DNA of 64,000 bases from Rhodobacteraceae bacterium DSL-40. GTDB lineage: Bacteria > Pseudomonadota > Alphaproteobacteria > Rhodobacterales > Rhodobacteraceae. The stretch covers positions 310,001 to 374,000 of the forward strand of contig QKPN01000003.1 in NCBI GenBank assembly GCA_003258405.1. The letters run 5' to 3'. Made by a program: the position numbers and the translations under genes. Position 1 is the stretch's first letter, and every line of letters starts with the position of its first letter. Below are positions 43,721 to 50,682 of the stretch, piece by piece. The notes beneath the pieces are model-generated. The model searched no databases and had not been told where the DNA came from. It worked only from the letters and a program-made list of their open reading frames with translations.

Positions 43721-44479
43721 ATGAAACATGATTTCGCCACCGCACCGCCTCCCGGGGAGGAGAGGGAGCCCCCGCAGCGCATCCTTTTCGTCGAGGACGA
43801 TCGCAAGCTCAGCGCCTTCCTCTGCCGCTATTTTGGCGAACAGGGCTATCTGGCGGCCGCCGTGCATGACGGCCCGGCGATGCGGCGGGCGCTTGCGGAG
43901 GAGAGGTTCGATCTGGTCGTGCTCGATGTCGGCCTCCCCGGCCGGGAAGACGGCTACACGCTGGCGCGCGATCTGAAGAAGGGAGAGGATATCGGGATCC
44001 TCTTCCTCTCCGCCCGGCAGGAAGCCGTTGACCGGATCGTCGGCCTCGAGATCGGTGCGGATGATTTTCTCGTCAAGCCGTTCGAGCCGCGCGAACTTCT
44101 CGCGCGCATTCGCGCCATCCTTCGGCGCCTGCCACTGGGGCAGCCGGCCGGGGCCAAGCTATCCGCGGAGCATCACCTTGCCTTCGACCGCTGGCACCTC
44201 GATCTCGACGCACGGCTTCTCCGGGACGCCGACGGCCGCGTCCAGACCCTGACGACACAGGAGTTCAATCTCCTCAGCATCCTCGCCCAGCGCCCCGGCC
44301 GCGTACTCAGCCGGGAGCAGCTGCTGGATCTTACCGTTGGCCGCCACTGGTCGCCCTACGACCGCTCGATCGATGTGATGATCGGCAAGATCCGCCGCAA
44401 GATCGGTGATCCCGGCCCCGATCACCGCCGGATCCGCACCATCCGCGGCGCAGGCTACATGTTCTCGCCCGATCCCTGA
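43721..44479 (+). CDS. OmpR-family response regulator
   Basis: The 252-residue regulator has a short N-terminal extension, a receiver (about 20-135; acidic VEDD, Asp69 in VVLDVGLPG, Lys in LVKPFEP) and a C-terminal winged helix (about 160-250; TTQEFNLLSILAQRPGRVLSREQL, DVMIGKIRRKIGD, RTIRGAGYMF). The ATG at 43721 is preferred to an upstream start. Its end overlaps the converging receiver-kinase gene by 25 bases. I infer it is the output of the permease-kinase system next to it and may bind the direct repeats before fmdA. Confidence 0.9.
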   Translation: MKHDFATAPPPGEEREPPQRILFVEDDRKLSAFLCRYFGEQGYLAAAVHDGPAMRRALAEERFDLVVLDVGLPGREDGYTLARDLKKGEDIGILFLSARQEAVDRIVGLEIGADDFLVKPFEPRELLARIRAILRRLPLGQPAGAKLSAEHHLAFDRWHLDLDARLLRDADGRVQTLTTQEFNLLSILAQRPGRVLSREQLLDLTVGRHWSPYDRSIDVMIGKIRRKIGDPGPDHRRIRTIRGAGYMFSPDP

Positions 44480-45573
44480 TGCGGCCCGAGACAGGGGAGA
44501 TCCAGCACCGCCCGCGCCCCGCCGCCAACGGCATTCTCGAGCCGGAACCGCCCGCCGGATTGCAGCGCCATATGCTGGATCATCGGGAGCCCGAGCCCCG
44601 TGCCCTCGGGCTTGGTGGTATAGAACGGCTCGAGCACGCGGCGCAGCCCTTCGGGTGTGAGCCCCGGCCCGTCGTCCTCGACCGTGAGCCGGGCATAATG
44701 CGCACCGCGCCAGATGCGTTCGAGCCTGACCACGGCACGCCCTCGCCCTCCGGTCGCATCCCGCGCATTGATGAGCAGGTTGACCACCGCCGTTTCCATC
44801 TGCCCCGGATCGATCGGCGCCAGCACGCCTTCCTCCGGCAGTTCGGCCGAAAGCGTCATCCCGATACAAAGCGAACGTTCGAGCATCGCTACCGCCCCCG
44901 AGACCGGGCCGCGCAGATCCCCGGGCTCCGCCCGATCGAGACGCCCCCGGGCAAATCCCATCAGGCGCGCGACCACGTCGGCAGCGGTTCCCGCGGCCTC
45001 CAGAGCATCACTCGCATAGGGCTTCAGCCGGTCCTCCGCCGCAAGACGTTCATCAATCACCGAGAGATTTGCGAGGATCACCGCCATCATGTTCTTGAAG
45101 TCATGCGACAAGCCCGCGGCAAGCTGCGACGTCGCCTCGAGCTGCCGCAGCAGTGCGAGCTCGTGCTCCGCGCGTGCCTTCTCCCGCCGGAGATCCGCGA
45201 GCTGGAAGCAGCGCTCCAGCGCCCGCATGAGCTCCTCGAGAAAGAACGGCTTGCGCAGGTAATCGTAAGCCCCGGCCTTCAGCGCGGCGACGGCGCTGTC
45301 GACCGAGGCATAGGCCGTCATGATGACGAGAATGAGCTCGGGAAAATGCGCCCGAAGCCGTGCCGCGACCTCCGTGCCGTCCTCATGCCCGAGGCGAATA
45401 TCGAGGAGCGCGACCTCCGTCTCTCCGCCGTCGAGCGCGGCGAGCGCGGCGGCCCCGTCATGCGCGATGTCGCAGTTCACCCCCTCAAGCGCCAGCGCGC
45501 GCGAGGTCGAGATCGCGAAATCGCTGTCATCGTCGATGATGAGCAGCCGACGCCCGGATGCGCGCCCGTTCAT
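44455..45573 (-). CDS. Receiver-histidine kinase hybrid
   Basis: This 372-residue soluble protein is built receiver first (about 8-125; IIDDDSD, Asp58 in ALLDIRLGHEDG, YLRKPFF), then a HisKA helix (His157 in GLSHDFKNMMAV) and a complete ATPase domain (NLLINARDAT, EDDGPGL, GTGLGL). It has no C-terminal receiver. It overlaps the NCS1-kinase gene by 4 bases, so the two are made together. The layout suggests that the upstream kinase phosphorylates its receiver and sets its own kinase activity towards the OmpR-type regulator. The relay order is inferred. Confidence 0.88.
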   Translation of the reverse strand: MNGRASGRRLLIIDDDSDFAISTSRALALEGVNCDIAHDGAAALAALDGGETEVALLDIRLGHEDGTEVAARLRAHFPELILVIMTAYASVDSAVAALKAGAYDYLRKPFFLEELMRALERCFQLADLRREKARAEHELALLRQLEATSQLAAGLSHDFKNMMAVILANLSVIDERLAAEDRLKPYASDALEAAGTAADVVARLMGFARGRLDRAEPGDLRGPVSGAVAMLERSLCIGMTLSAELPEEGVLAPIDPGQMETAVVNLLINARDATGGRGRAVVRLERIWRGAHYARLTVEDDGPGLTPEGLRRVLEPFYTTKPEGTGLGLPMIQHMALQSGGRFRLENAVGGGARAVLDLPCLGPHQGSGENM

Positions 45574-48206
45574 GCCGCCTCGGCGATGCTGAGGCGCATG
45601 AGGGTGCCGTCCGGCCCCGTGCGTTCGATCCAGGCATCACCGCCATGCATCTGTGCCACGCGGCGAACGAGCGAAAGCCCGAGGCCGACACCGGAGGCCT
45701 TGGTGGTAACAAGCGGATCGAAGGCACGCGCCCTGAGCTCGGGCGCGAGCCCCGGCCCGTTGTCCTCGATCTCGAGAACGCTGCGGCCCTCCTCCCGAAA
45801 GGCCCGCAGCACCACACGCGGGCGGTGGCCGGGCACGTCGACCGCCTCGGCGGCCTGCCAGCCGTTCTCGATGAGATTGCGGATGGCAAACTGAAGCCGG
45901 GCAGGATCGCAGCGCAGGAACATTCCCGCCGGCACGTCCAGATCCACATGCGCCCCGGCCGGATGCTCGTCGATCAGCGCCTCCAGCCAGTCCCGCAGAT
46001 CCACTGGAATCGTTTCATGCGCACCCTGTCGCGCGAAATCGAGCAGGATATCGATGATCCGGCTGCACCGGGCGATGTTGCGCCGGATGCGCTGGACATC
46101 CTCCTCCGCTTCCGGCCCGATGCCCGGGCTCCGCGAGAGCACTTCGACCGAACTGGTGATCGTCCCGAGCGGATTGCGCAGCTCGTGGCTGATCGTCGCG
46201 GCGACCTCGCCGACCGCCGCCAGACGCTGTCGGATCGCGAGTTCGCGCTGGGTCGAACCGAGGCGCTGCAGGGCCCCGAGCAGGTTTTCTTCGGTCAGTC
46301 GCCGGCGCTCGTTGGCCATCACCGCCCAGAAGGCAACGAGCGCCACCAGAGGCGCCGACCCGAGGAAGAAATGCGTCATCGCCCCGGTGTCGTGCAGGCT
46401 TCCCGCAAGGTTCAGCGCAATGAGATACAGGCCGCCGAGCCCGGCCATCAGTCCGAGAAACACGGCGCCCACCTGCCAGATCCGCGACCCGAGCCGCGGC
46501 GAGACCCGGTGCAGGCGCACGGCATCGGCGGTCGGATCAATGTCCTCCGGCATCGCGACATGCGGGCGCTTGCAAAAATCCCGGCAATGCGGCTCGAGAC
46601 TGCAGCAGAGCGAGCAGATCGGGCGCTGGTAGAAGGTGCAATAGGCCATGTCGCGCGGCTCGTAGTCATGGCTGCAGATCGCGCAACCGCAGCGCGCGAC
46701 ACCGGCGCCGAAATCATGCGTCCGGCGCGCGACATACCCCCGCCCCTGCCGGACAAGCCCGATCGCCGTTGCCGCGGCAAGCGAGACAAAGAACGCGATC
46801 GGCGGCGACCAGGCCTGCAGCAGCTCCCCACCGAACCCGAGGAAGAGCGCCAGTCCGAGCAAGCCGCCAACTGCCATGCCGCCGCAGCCGACAACGTTGA
46901 AATCCGGCAGATAGGCGCGCTTGAACTCGATCTGCGCCGGGCTGAAACCGAGCGGCTTCAGGATCGCGAGGTCGGCAAAGATCGCGCCAAGCCAGGCGAG
47001 CGCCAGATTGGCATAGATTGCGAGCACCGCCTCCAGCGTCGAGAACACCCCGAGCAGCATGAGCGCGCAACTTATTGCCACATGGAGCAGCAGCCAGACC
47101 AGCCGGCCGGGATGATAGCGCGCGATCCTGAGGAAGAAGTTCGATTGTGCCAGCGACCCGGCATAGGCGTTCGTGACGTTGATCTTGATCTGCGCGACCA
47201 GGATATAGACCGTCGCCACGACAAGCGCCGTGCCCGGGCCGAGCAGATACTCGTAGGCGTGCCAGAACATGCCGATGGGCTCGACGGCAAGGCTCGCGGG
47301 CATTCCGTCGCCAATGGCGAGCCAAGCAAGGAAACTCCCCATCAGGATCTTGGTGCCACCGATCAGGATCCAGCCCGGCCCGGCCAGGATGAGCGCCCCC
47401 CACCACTGCAGGCGCGTGGTGGCCTCGGGCGGCGGCAGAAAGCGCAGATAGTCGACCTGCTCGCCGATCTGGAGCGAAAGCGCACAGAGGACACCGATGG
47501 CGCCGCCAAGCGAGAGCAGCGTCATCGCGGGCCCGGGCGCGGCAAGCCAGGCCCGAACCCCTTCGGGCTCTGCCCAGAGGATCGCAACGAACGGCAGAAG
47601 CGCGAGCACGATCCAGGGGAGCTGGGTCACACGCTGGAAGCGCGAGATCGCGGTCATGCCCCTCGATGCAACCGGCAGGATGACGAGCGCCGACAGGAGA
47701 TATCCGAGCGGCAGCGGCAGCCCGAAGCACACGAAGAGCGCCTGCCCGATGATGACACCCTCGAGCGCGAAGAAGATGATGGTGTAGGTCGCGTAGATGA
47801 GCGAGGTAACCGTCGAGCCGATGTATCCGAAGCCCGCCCCCCGGGTGAGAAGATCCATGTCCACGTTGGAGCGGGCCACGTGATAGGCGATGGGCAATGA
47901 CGTCACGAATATGAAGATCGAGGCCAGCAGCACCGCAACGACCGTCGTCTGAACGCCCCAGGAAATCGTCAGCGCCGCACCGATCGCCTCGAGCGCGAGA
48001 AACGAGATCCCGCCGAGCGCGGTATGCGTGATCGTCGCCGGGCTCCAGCGGCGATGGCTCGCCGGGGCATAGCGCAGCGCGTAGTCCTCGATGGTCTCGT
48101 CGGCCACCCACGACTGGTAACTGCGCGGCGCGGGTTCGAGGCCCGGAAAACGGTCCCTGTCCCGCTCCGGATCCTCCGGCCGATCGTCCGCGCTCCGTCT
48201 GCCCAT
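45570..48206 (-). CDS. NCS1 permease-like domain fused to histidine kinase
   Basis: The 878-residue protein joins two families. Residues about 35-490 form a purine-cytosine permease (NCS1)-like domain of about 12 TM helices (YALRYAPASHRRWSPATI, QIKINVTNAYAGSL). Next comes a segment with nine cysteines (506-545; CGCAIC, CSLCC), two more TM helices (about 578-600 and 612-632) and a full kinase: His674 in TISHELRNPLG, N box NLIENGWQAAE, DNGPGLAPE and GVGLGL. It probably senses a small nitrogen compound through, or instead of, transport, as CbrA-type kinases do with SLC5 domains. It is divergent from formamidase. The ATG at 48204-48206 was chosen. Confidence 0.9.
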   Translation of the reverse strand: MGRRSADDRPEDPERDRDRFPGLEPAPRSYQSWVADETIEDYALRYAPASHRRWSPATITHTALGGISFLALEAIGAALTISWGVQTTVVAVLLASIFIFVTSLPIAYHVARSNVDMDLLTRGAGFGYIGSTVTSLIYATYTIIFFALEGVIIGQALFVCFGLPLPLGYLLSALVILPVASRGMTAISRFQRVTQLPWIVLALLPFVAILWAEPEGVRAWLAAPGPAMTLLSLGGAIGVLCALSLQIGEQVDYLRFLPPPEATTRLQWWGALILAGPGWILIGGTKILMGSFLAWLAIGDGMPASLAVEPIGMFWHAYEYLLGPGTALVVATVYILVAQIKINVTNAYAGSLAQSNFFLRIARYHPGRLVWLLLHVAISCALMLLGVFSTLEAVLAIYANLALAWLGAIFADLAILKPLGFSPAQIEFKRAYLPDFNVVGCGGMAVGGLLGLALFLGFGGELLQAWSPPIAFFVSLAAATAIGLVRQGRGYVARRTHDFGAGVARCGCAICSHDYEPRDMAYCTFYQRPICSLCCSLEPHCRDFCKRPHVAMPEDIDPTADAVRLHRVSPRLGSRIWQVGAVFLGLMAGLGGLYLIALNLAGSLHDTGAMTHFFLGSAPLVALVAFWAVMANERRRLTEENLLGALQRLGSTQRELAIRQRLAAVGEVAATISHELRNPLGTITSSVEVLSRSPGIGPEAEEDVQRIRRNIARCSRIIDILLDFARQGAHETIPVDLRDWLEALIDEHPAGAHVDLDVPAGMFLRCDPARLQFAIRNLIENGWQAAEAVDVPGHRPRVVLRAFREEGRSVLEIEDNGPGLAPELRARAFDPLVTTKASGVGLGLSLVRRVAQMHGGDAWIERTGPDGTLMRLSIAEAA

Positions 48207-48372: not shown

Positions 48373-48426
48373 CCGGTTACACGAAATTACATTTGGCCGC
48401 GTTTCGGGACGAACGCCGGTTACACG
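48373..48426 (+). promoter_or_regulatory. Direct repeats CCGGTTACACG before formamidase
   Basis: Two identical 11-mers (48373-48383 and 48416-48426) are 43 bases apart, about four helical turns, in the divergent promoter region between the permease-kinase and fmdA. Between them lies GCGTT-N8-AACGC. Same-face repeats are typical of response-regulator sites. The linked OmpR-type regulator is the likely ligand; this is inference. Confidence 0.5.
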
Positions 48427-48494: not shown

Positions 48495-49721
48495 ATGCCA
48501 AAGACAGTCTTCGAGGTCGATCTCACCAAGGCTCCCGAAGAAGCCGCACAGAAGCCGCACAACCGCTGGCACCCCGACATCCCGATGGTGGAGACCTTCA
48601 AGCCCGGAGACGTTCTGCGCGTCGAATGCTACGACTGGACCGGCGGGCAGATCGGCAACAACGACAGCGCCAACGATATCCGTGACGTGGACCTCACGCG
48701 GGTCCACTACCTCTCCGGCCCGTTCGGCTTCGAAGGCGCCGAACCGGGCGACCTACTGGTCGTGGACATCCTCGACATCGGCGCGATGGACGACTCGCGC
48801 TGGGGCTTCAACGGCCTCTTCGCCAAGGAAAACGGCGGCGGCTTTCTCACCGAGCACTACCCCAACGCCACGAAGTCGATCTGGGATTTCGAGGGCATCT
48901 ACACCACCTCGCGCCACATTCCCGGCGTGCGCTATCCCGGCCTGATCCACCCGGGCCTCATCGGTTGCCTGCCGGATCACAAGCTGCTCGCCGAGGCCAA
49001 CCGCCGCGAGGCCGAGCTCATCGCGACCGATCCTGACCGCGTTCCGCCGCTCGCCTGCCCGCCCGATGCCTCCACCGCGCTGATGGGCCTGCTCAAGGGC
49101 ACCGCCGCCGATACCGCCGCCAAGGAGGCCTGGCGCACGGTGCCGCCGCGCGAGCACGGTGGCAACTGCGACATCAAGAACCTCTCGCGCGGCTCCAAGG
49201 TCTATTTCCCCGTCTACGTGAAGGGCGGCGGGCTCTCGATGGGCGATATCCACTTCAGCCAGGGCGATGGCGAGATCACCTTCTGCGGCGCGATCGAAAT
49301 GGCCGGCTGGATCGACATCAAGGTCGAGATCATCAAGGACGGCATGTCGAAATACGGCGTCATCAACCCGATCTTCCGGCCCTCGCCGATCGATCCGCAT
49401 TTCGACGACTACCTGATCTTCGAGGGCATCTCGGTCGATGAGCACACCGGCGAGCAATACTATCTCGACGCCCATGTCGCCTACCGCCGCGCCTGTCTCA
49501 ACGCGATCGAGTACCTGAAGAAATTCGGCTACTCGGGCGAGCAGGCCTACATGATCCTCGGCACCGCGCCCGTCGAGGGCCGCATCGCGGGCATCGTCGA
49601 CATTCCCAACGTCTGCGCGACACTCGCCATCCCCACGGCCATCTTCGACTTCGACATCCGGCCGAACGGCGACGGACCGAAGCGCTCCGTCCCCGACATC
49701 CCGGTCGCCATGACGAGCTGA
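48495..49721 (+). CDS. fmdA: Formamidase (FmdA/acetamidase family)
   Basis: The 408-residue cytoplasmic enzyme hydrolyses formamide to formate and ammonia. The family N-terminus (PHNRWHPDIPM), GDVLRVECYDWTGGQIGNND, HPGLIGCLPDH, REHGGNCDIKNL and GVHFSQGDGE-like GDIHFSQGDGE segments are all present, and length equals that of Methylophilus FmdA. Start ATG 48495 has GGGAGG upstream. It is followed by an AmiS/UreI channel and an FmdB-like gene, a standard amide utilisation set, and is divergent from the transporter-kinase. Confidence 0.95.
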   Translation: MPKTVFEVDLTKAPEEAAQKPHNRWHPDIPMVETFKPGDVLRVECYDWTGGQIGNNDSANDIRDVDLTRVHYLSGPFGFEGAEPGDLLVVDILDIGAMDDSRWGFNGLFAKENGGGFLTEHYPNATKSIWDFEGIYTTSRHIPGVRYPGLIHPGLIGCLPDHKLLAEANRREAELIATDPDRVPPLACPPDASTALMGLLKGTAADTAAKEAWRTVPPREHGGNCDIKNLSRGSKVYFPVYVKGGGLSMGDIHFSQGDGEITFCGAIEMAGWIDIKVEIIKDGMSKYGVINPIFRPSPIDPHFDDYLIFEGISVDEHTGEQYYLDAHVAYRRACLNAIEYLKKFGYSGEQAYMILGTAPVEGRIAGIVDIPNVCATLAIPTAIFDFDIRPNGDGPKRSVPDIPVAMTS

Positions 49722-49860: not shown

Positions 49861-50373
49861 ATGTTGCTCGGATTTCTTCTATTCTACGTCGGCGCCGTGC
49901 TGTTTCTCAACGGGATCTGGCTCATGGGCAAGATCCAGGACCGGGAAATCGTCGTCATCAACATCGTCTCCGGCCTCGTGGCCGCGGGCGTGGTGATCCA
50001 GAGCGCCTTCGGTCCGGCCGCCGACCCGGACACGGTACGCGCCGCAGCCCTGACCCTCATGTTCAGCACCACCTATTTCTGGGTCGCCTACAACCGCCTC
50101 GTCGCGGTCGACGGTCGCGGGCTCGGCTGGTTCAGCCTCTTCGTCGCCATCAGCACGGCGCCGGTCTTCCTCCGCGGGATCGGGTCCGCCGCCTCGCCGG
50201 GCGAATTCTGGCTGGCCGGAAACTGGCTCATCTGGGGCGTGCTCTGGTTCATGTATTTCCTGCTGCTGGCACTCGGGCGCCCGATCCTGCGCCAGACGGC
50301 ATGGGTCACGCTCATCGCCGGGATCGTGACCGGCTGGGTGCCGGGATACCTGCTGCTCGACGGACTGCTGTAA
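49861..50373 (+). CDS. AmiS/UreI-family amide or urea channel
   Basis: The 170-residue protein has about six TM helices (MLLGFLLFYVGAVLFLNGIWL; TYFWVAYNRL; WGVLWFMYFLLLAL), as in the AmiS/UreI family of six-helix channels for urea and short amides. It lies 139 bases after fmdA and 12 bases before the FmdB-like gene. Formamide or short-chain amide uptake is the natural reading. Confidence 0.92.
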   Translation: MLLGFLLFYVGAVLFLNGIWLMGKIQDREIVVINIVSGLVAAGVVIQSAFGPAADPDTVRAAALTLMFSTTYFWVAYNRLVAVDGRGLGWFSLFVAISTAPVFLRGIGSAASPGEFWLAGNWLIWGVLWFMYFLLLALGRPILRQTAWVTLIAGIVTGWVPGYLLLDGLL

Positions 50374-50385
50374 GGGAGCGCTTCG

Positions 50386-50682
50386 ATGCCGATCTACGAT
50401 TTCCACTGCGCCGACCATGGCATCTTCACCGACCGGGTCAGTTACGAGGCGAGCCGGGCCGGCATCGCCTGCCCCTGCTGCGGCAACACGAGCGCGGTGC
50501 TGCCCGCCCTGCCCCAGATCAGCACGCTCTCGAGCGCGCTGCGCCGGGCCGAACACCGGGCGGAAACCAGCTCCGGCGCGCCGAAGGTGGTGAAACGCAG
50601 CCACCTGCCGAGTTGCGGCTGCAACCTCTGCAAGAAGAAGGCGCCGCCCACCTCCCGGCGCTGGATGCTCGGCCAGTGCTGA
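50386..50682 (+). CDS. FmdB-family zinc ribbon protein
   Basis: The 98-residue protein has the FmdB N-terminus (MPIYDFHCADHGIF) and a zinc ribbon with CPCC at about residues 29-32; usual partners are CxxC pairs, and a second cysteine group (CGCNLC) lies near residue 77. FmdB was described as a regulator of amide genes in Methylophilus. Whether it acts on DNA here is unknown. It is co-oriented with the channel gene 12 bases upstream. Confidence 0.9.
   Translation: MPIYDFHCADHGIFTDRVSYEASRAGIACPCCGNTSAVLPALPQISTLSSALRRAEHRAETSSGAPKVVKRSHLPSCGCNLCKKKAPPTSRRWMLGQC

Follow-up and report, generated by a model that had tools for sequence, protein, structure and literature searches.

What does a histidine kinase detect when its input domain resembles an NCS1 transporter and its gene faces a formamidase operon? 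The question is raised by an 878-residue protein encoded in a 64,000-nucleotide stretch of DNA from Rhodobacteraceae bacterium DSL-40 (contig QKPN01000003.1, positions 310,001–374,000), which was analyzed as a whole and is called the window below. We consider it likely that the protein is a membrane sensor made from an NCS1 transporter, which would respond to formamide here and to urea in urease-linked relatives, and which would control the neighboring genes for uptake and hydrolysis.

Domain architecture of the sensor kinase

The protein contains a HisKA domain with an H-box histidine (54.2 bits in Pfam, cut-off 26.9) and a HATPase_c domain (67.8 bits, cut-off 26.4), the two features that identify a sensor histidine kinase. 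Hydropathy averaged over the family gave 17 segments within residues 1–660; with four fragments of 1–3 residues merged into their neighbors and one long segment split into TM3 and TM4 (TM, transmembrane helix), 12 helices were read by eye before residue 485, and the last two helices lie at about 588 and 622. The order is 12 helices, a soluble stretch with eight cysteines, two helices, and the kinase. Hydropathy, alignment and Pfam scores thus bear out the first-pass annotation, which had described a single frame with these parts and an intact kinase. The architecture is kept by 15 relatives at 37–50% identity, 12 of which have an added receiver domain, and the frame is therefore not a product of chance.

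The cysteines (C508, C511, C523, C531, C534, C535, C541 and C545) are invariant in a 16-row alignment and also across 80 aligned relatives from genome contigs. The cluster is probably cytoplasmic. Because its profile matches to zinc fingers and rubredoxin are weak, metal binding by the cluster is a guess.

The input domain is related to NCS1 transporters

Pfam is blank over the N-terminal 500 residues. The NCS1 model PF02133 had no match at E ≤ 1 in any of 16 rows, and the matches at this threshold included neither SSF nor STAC (the presence of the STAC model in that Pfam set is unconfirmed). No chain among the PDB sequences was matched by phmmer with the domain alone or by the 16-row profile. 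Profile–profile comparison was needed to place the domain: hhalign against 17 NCS1 proteins from related genomes gave 98.5% (E 1.5e-15, 390 columns), and a 58-row alignment of the domain gave 98.2% over 430 columns. SSF and APC, families that share the LeuT-like fold, served as controls and gave 0.2% (eight SSF proteins) and 0.4%, respectively. The NCS1 set came from 19 loci, with L142 and L149 left out; the SSF set from 14 loci with 13 frames, of which five of low hydrophobicity, probably from the wrong strand, were left out; and the APC set from 14 loci, 13 of which were aligned. Descent of the N-terminal part from the NCS1 transporter family is supported by these comparisons, so that the permease-like domain named in the first-pass annotation stands as a statement of ancestry, even though Pfam itself finds none.

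The nearest stand-alone relative that we found (L047:9151–10908, minus strand) passes the PF02133 cut-off (25.6 vs. 23.5 bits) and aligns with the window protein over 512 positions at 26% identity (E 2e-29). It carries a C-terminal CxxC...CxxC motif, part of the cysteine motif is common to both proteins, and it adjoins genes resembling caprolactamase and hydantoinase subunits, which score below the cut-offs of those models. Judged by its sequence, this protein bridges the NCS1 transporters and the sensor input domain, and the sensor may have arisen from transporters similar to it.

The fusion is present in 17 of 394 genomes of the family, one of which (G381) has it split over short contigs; four other, weak matches have no kinase. 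A draw of 398 genomes of the phylum has the input domain in 52 genomes, and in 37 of its 213 genera. This search gave 58 matches, of which 57 were counted; the one left out (G603:C40, identical to L229; E 5e-44) is a 552-residue open frame that seems to encode a distant stand-alone protein. A scan of genome contigs gave at least 587 confirmed stretches, and the best 80 of these, which were analyzed, include cyanobacteria, Sulfurimonas and Polyangium. The domain occurs in Pseudomonadota, Cyanobacteriota, Campylobacterota and Myxococcota. It is also matched by 531 plasmid records, 342 of them from Klebsiella. The records inspected name the protein "ATP-binding protein" or hybrid histidine kinase.

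Linkage to formamide and urea genes

The first-pass annotation had made its proposal depend on homologues of the fusion being linked to amide genes, and they are. All 16 flanked loci in the family, the window's included, have fmdA within the stretch. A close FmdA (67–89% identical, or the window's own) was found in 16 of the 394 family genomes, and all 16 carry the fusion; six other FmdA-like matches are remote (33–36%). Among the 398 phylum genomes, 52 have the domain, 40 have FmdA and 39 have both (Fisher p 1.4e-41, a value that overstates the evidence because the genomes are related). Counted by copies, 39 of the 57 domains, with the window's own, lie within 20 kb of fmdA; 16 of the remaining 18 lie beside urease and/or urea-type urt genes, and the other two (L218 and L228) are on cut contigs. 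All 55 phylum copies with enough flank therefore adjoin fmdA or urease/urt genes. Matches to NCBIfam models on representative loci were to UreA, UreB, UreC, UreG, UrtA and UrtE, and the urease-linked and formamidase-linked UrtA proteins form two branches that are about 40% alike.

In a second set, 90 of 94 well-flanked loci have FmdA, AmiF, an AmiE-like gene, urease or urt; these loci were chosen, with many from Bradyrhizobium and with L210–L226 fetched because they have no linked fmdA, and the draw of 398 genomes gives the fairer count. The place of the formamidase is occupied in Klebsiella (L132 and L120) by AmiF (NF009803, 602 bits), a member of the nitrilase superfamily according to PMC10781810. 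AmiF is unrelated to FmdA and sits in the same place: the function is retained although the enzyme family differs.

We note that the Klebsiella plasmid cluster (L132:3876–13348; also L120) combines a formamide-type UrtA (72% vs. 41%), AmiF and the NCS1-like sensor. Given this combination, the substrate of the cluster, which has been described as a "urea transporter" (UTS), may be formamide and not urea. A gene resembling aliphatic amidases (34–39% identical to AmiF) was seen in 25 loci (e.g., L072, L101, L112 and L126), many of them from Bradyrhizobium, Pseudomonas and Burkholderia, and mostly near fmdA.

Two arrangements of the signaling genes

The loci are wired in two ways. The window type has a kinase without a receiver, a coupled receiver–kinase protein, an OmpR-type regulator and AmiS. 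In the commoner type, a receiver is fused to the kinase, the regulator is LuxR-type and about 305 residues long, and a urt-like ABC operon is usually present. The regulator types were named by Pfam on the window and L045 only.

A quick tree of 117 rows, in which 34 of 114 inner branches are open, requires six changes between formamide and urea labels, and for the urea label the starred branches by themselves require five; one change accounts for the window-type group, which was set by hand, and two for GGDEF output. The labels were set from the neighbors: rows with only a formamide-type ABC transporter, AmiF or (L061) an AmiE-like gene were labeled formamide, and rows with only urea-type urt were labeled urea. 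Two labels were set by hand, L128 (urease with a formamide-type UrtA) as urea and L227 (both enzymes) as formamide. Within the AmiS-type group, the window protein and its relative from Paracoccus denitrificans (L131) sit on an inner branch of great length (1.37 changes per column), and this lineage therefore seems to have evolved unusually fast.

The output can also be replaced. In Sulfurimonas, the NCS1–cysteine input module is joined to GGDEF-EAL in L064, L068 and L108 and to GGDEF in L075, in place of the kinase, and L060 keeps the kinase output. Their domain content makes it likely that the GGDEF and GGDEF-EAL fusions are c-di-GMP switches.

Candidate operators

Each wiring has a conserved operator-like sequence, and to judge from the motifs the candidate operators fit their partner regulators, OmpR-type and LuxR-type. 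The direct repeat TGTAAT-N4-TGTAAC is among the best-kept blocks in four Paracoccus-type intergenic regions. Its only exact match in the window (expected 0.00) is at 48376..48391, and this site is also the sole exact match to TGTAAYNNNNTGTAAC in the 4.37-Mb host genome (reversed control 0; exact matches only). When up to two mismatches are allowed, 14 of 17 AmiS-type loci carry the repeat on the same strand upstream of fmdA, and it is present in all ten alphaproteobacterial loci outside the discovery set and the four plasmids (L031–L033 and L051–L057). The same criterion is matched by 21 of 680 random windows from these loci, some of which are necessarily the site itself; of the dinucleotide shuffles, 7 of 680 match.

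For the commoner wiring, word counts in 46 non-redundant 420-base regions upstream of the domain gave the dyad TACGTCA-N2-TGACGTA; the best word was present in 33 of the 46 regions (shuffled maximum 9). Up to two mismatches, it is found in 38 of 66 formamide ABC-type loci and in none of 14 AmiS-type loci or 12 others. The controls for the formamide ABC-type set were 1.2% of random windows from the same loci (site included) and one of 1320 shuffles. The held-out loci, among them some closely related to the discovery set and three that frame length assigns to the AmiS-type or window-type, had the palindrome in 12 of 30 cases; of 1200 mostly coding windows none had it, and of 1200 shuffles one did. 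It does not occur in the window, which fits the OmpR-type wiring there. Its seven-two-seven layout recalls NarL-type sites. In genus g417, which groups with Bradyrhizobium, a variant TACGC-N6-GCGTA is frequent (L182, L184, L187, L192 and L193), hinting at co-evolution with the LuxR-type regulator.

Ligand pocket, mechanism and alternatives

Ten residues are identical in all 117 rows: E149, Q246, E249, Q250, D252, Q339, K341, N343, N346 and Y348. Aligned with the hydantoin transporter Mhp1, Trp117 corresponds to F145 (F in 110 rows, L in 7), Gln121 to E149, Trp220 to position 240 (V in 44, L in 29, S in 11 and A in 11 rows) and Asn318 to N346; K341 takes the position of Ser312, or of Thr313 without a gap. 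We take Ser312 and Thr313 to be the Mhp1 counterparts of the threonine pair of CodB. That pair, on TM8 (Thr278/Thr279), binds sodium (PMC9379551). By alignment, the Ser/Thr pair of the Na2 site is not kept in the sensors, which have lysine at 341 in every row and isoleucine at 342 in 116 of 117. According to PMC4195764, Asn318 of Mhp1 binds an N/O face of hydantoin by a two-pronged bond, and the hydantoin side chain is packed against Trp220, the loss of which had little effect on uptake. Formamide and urea present this N/O face and have no side chain. Taken together with the pocket mapping and with the titratable lysine (K196) reported in the Na2 site of CbrA (PMC13022988), this makes a sodium-independent amide receptor a reasonable reading, in which the invariant lysine would replace sodium at the predicted site.

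For the remaining steps we infer the following scheme. The NCS1 fold would bind a small amide from outside, formamide at the window locus and urea in the urease-linked relatives. Movement driven by the ligand would be relayed by the cysteine cluster on the cytoplasmic side and by the final pair of helices, and would alter autophosphorylation of H674. In the window, the phosphate would probably pass via the coupled receiver–kinase protein to the OmpR-type regulator, which would bind TGTAAT-N4-TGTAAC and turn on fmdA-amiS-fmdB. In the commoner relatives, the fused receiver and the LuxR-type regulator would act on TACGTCA-N2-TGACGTA, with a urt-like ABC transporter plus formamidase, or urt and/or urease, as the targets.

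We offer more tentatively, and with somewhat less than even confidence, a wider version of this proposal: that these proteins are an unnamed receptor class derived from NCS1 transporters, with an invariant lysine in place of the sodium site and with transport lost or vestigial, in which a shared pocket changed its ligand from formamide to urea or back several times. The module would sit on histidine kinases in most bacteria and on c-di-GMP enzymes in Sulfurimonas, and within the literature searched it would be the first dedicated two-component receptor for urea or formamide.

Several observations weigh against an amide sensor that controls its neighbors. Where the linkage was inherited from common ancestors, the single genomes do not count as independent cases. 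One genome (G528) has FmdA without the domain, and another (G606) carries a second, unlinked FmdA. Four well-flanked loci, from Sulfurimonas (L060 and L064) and cyanobacteria (L070 and L122), have none of the amide or urea genes searched for, nor do 11 more rows with short or partial flanks. The repeat is missing from three betaproteobacterial AmiS-type loci (L059, L062 and L097), and the palindrome from 18 of the 30 held-out loci; up to two mismatches, the palindrome is present in only 4 of 20 urea-linked loci. Finally, the alignments used to map the family onto Mhp1 have 15% identity and a one-residue gap in TM8.

The alternative that survives best, although we think it rather unlikely, is a true transceptor, in which transport of formamide or urea by the NCS1 part, perhaps coupled to protons, would have been kept and would go along with signaling, as in CbrA with histidine. 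CbrA transports histidine via its SLC5 part (PMC13022988), and its Na2-site lysine has a possible counterpart in K341. However, most loci already have AmiS or urt-like ABC uptake, except for four urease-linked ones (L215, L222, L224 and L226) that show none within the stretch, and the fused transporter domain of Ks-Amt5 transports inefficiently (PMC8534201). Sensing of ammonium or of general nitrogen status, with the amide genes merely as nitrogen-scavenging targets, is improbable. It would fit with the release of ammonia by both formamidase and urease, and with the finding that the mapped pocket residues are alike in formamide-linked and urea-linked rows; but with a single exact operator in the host genome the control would be too narrow for general nitrogen status, the linked genes are those for amides and urea, and the NCS1 ancestry suggests a ligand with an N–C=O group. 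A hydantoin-, lactam- or pyrimidine-type ligand, as sensed by ordinary NCS1 proteins, is the least probable, since it would suit the neighbors of L047 but not the evaluable phylum copies, all beside fmdA or urea genes (hydantoin and pyrimidine genes were not searched for), nor the residues V, L, S or A that replace Trp220 in 95 of 117 rows.

We therefore retain the amide sensor as the preferred reading. Of the ligands listed in the first-pass annotation, formamide and urea are favored by the neighbors, and a nucleobase breakdown product finds no support in them, hydantoinase and pyrimidine genes not having been searched for systematically. The urease branch, the operators, the GGDEF/EAL fusions and the lysine at the predicted sodium site had not been foreseen there.

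Organization of the window locus

The features of the locus are listed in Table 1.

Table 1. Features of the sensor locus, in positions of the window.
Feature	Position	Strand	Details
NCS1-like sensor histidine kinase	45570..48206	-	878 aa, ATG start; uninterrupted frame
NCS1-derived 12-TM input domain	46707..48131	-	about residues 26-500; profile comparison, hydropathy
Eight-cysteine cluster	46572..46685	-	residues 508-545
Two further TM helices	46317..46475	-	about residues 578-630; hydropathy
HisKA domain	46023..46211	-	residues 666-728; predicted phospho-acceptor H674
HATPase_c domain	45585..45908	-	residues 767-874
Receiver + HisKA-like + HATPase_c protein	44455..45573	-	372 aa; start overlaps kinase stop
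OmpR-type response regulator	43721..44479	+	3' end overlaps receiver-kinase gene by 25 bases
Candidate operator TGTAATTTCGTGTAAC (10-bp direct repeat)	48376..48391	-	between kinase gene and fmdA
fmdA, formamidase	48495..49721	+	NF045496, 748 bits, cut-off 500
amiS, AmiS/UreI amide channel	49861..50373	+	AmiS_UreI, 189.8 bits
fmdB-like zinc-ribbon protein	50386..50682	+	Zn_ribbon_8, 32.4 bits, just under cut-off 34.4

The neighbors are as first described: the kinase gene shares four bases (45570–45573) with the receiver–kinase gene, the OmpR-type regulator gene is convergent with this pair, and fmdA-amiS-fmdB is transcribed divergently from the kinase gene. The HisKA match of the receiver–kinase protein itself (23.8 bits) is below the cut-off of 26.9. 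Four Paracoccus plasmids share this gene order, three according to their gene tables and that of P. denitrificans (L131) from a comparison of frames, and their input domains are 82–85% identical to the window's. To judge from these plasmids, the window probably stems from Paracoccus or one of its close relatives. The three with gene tables annotate the kinase as "ATP-binding protein".

When the whole window protein was used as query, the one scan made of viral contigs found no relative. A role in defense was dropped because PADLOC returned nothing.

Comparison with known systems

The sensor is probably widespread but uncharacterized: the top-ranked results of our literature search contained no description of an NCS1–kinase or of a two-component receptor for formamide or urea. 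The urtABCDE–formamidase clusters of Klebsiella pKPN-307 plasmids and Pseudomonas veronii are the same kind of transporter–formamidase set as L132. The pKPN-307 set is described as a urea transporter plus AmiF (PMC5506382, PMC13060141), and formamide uptake has already been suggested for the P. veronii set (PMC13209695); the terms "histidine kinase" and "two-component" are absent from the main texts of these three papers. A hybrid kinase and a LuxR-type regulator are drawn beside a urtABCDE set in PMC13296017, without further study there. A plasmid module that is common in Klebsiella gains a candidate regulator in the sensor, and the use of formamide and urea as nitrogen sources gains a receptor that can be tested. 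The series from transporter to receptor, with its natural switches between formamide and urea, should be useful for mapping specificity, and an amide biosensor is a possible use.

Compared to Mhp1 and CodB, the family shares the fold by descent and keeps the TM3 aromatic residue and the TM8 asparagine. It differs in the replacement of the Na2 Ser/Thr pair by Lys-Ile and of Gln121 by Glu (both alignment-based), in its fused outputs and in having no PF02133 match. CbrA and CrbS, the SLC5–STAC kinases, have the same plan of an N-terminal transporter domain, an intracellular linker module and a C-terminal histidine kinase, with the Na2-site lysine in CbrA (PMC13022988). In contrast, the window family is not SSF (0.2% in hhalign), has the cysteine cluster and two TM helices where CbrA has STAC, and is linked to formamide and urea genes. 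Ks-Amt5 likewise places a transporter fold before a kinase as its sensor (PMC8534201), but there the fold is that of Amt and the ligand is ammonium, whereas the family described here has an NCS1 fold and spans 37 of the 213 genera of the phylum draw. By its sequence, the window protein would work like the SLC5–STAC and Amt kinases with an input domain that belongs to neither family, and it adds NCS1 to the SLC5 and Amt folds known from transporter–kinase fusions.

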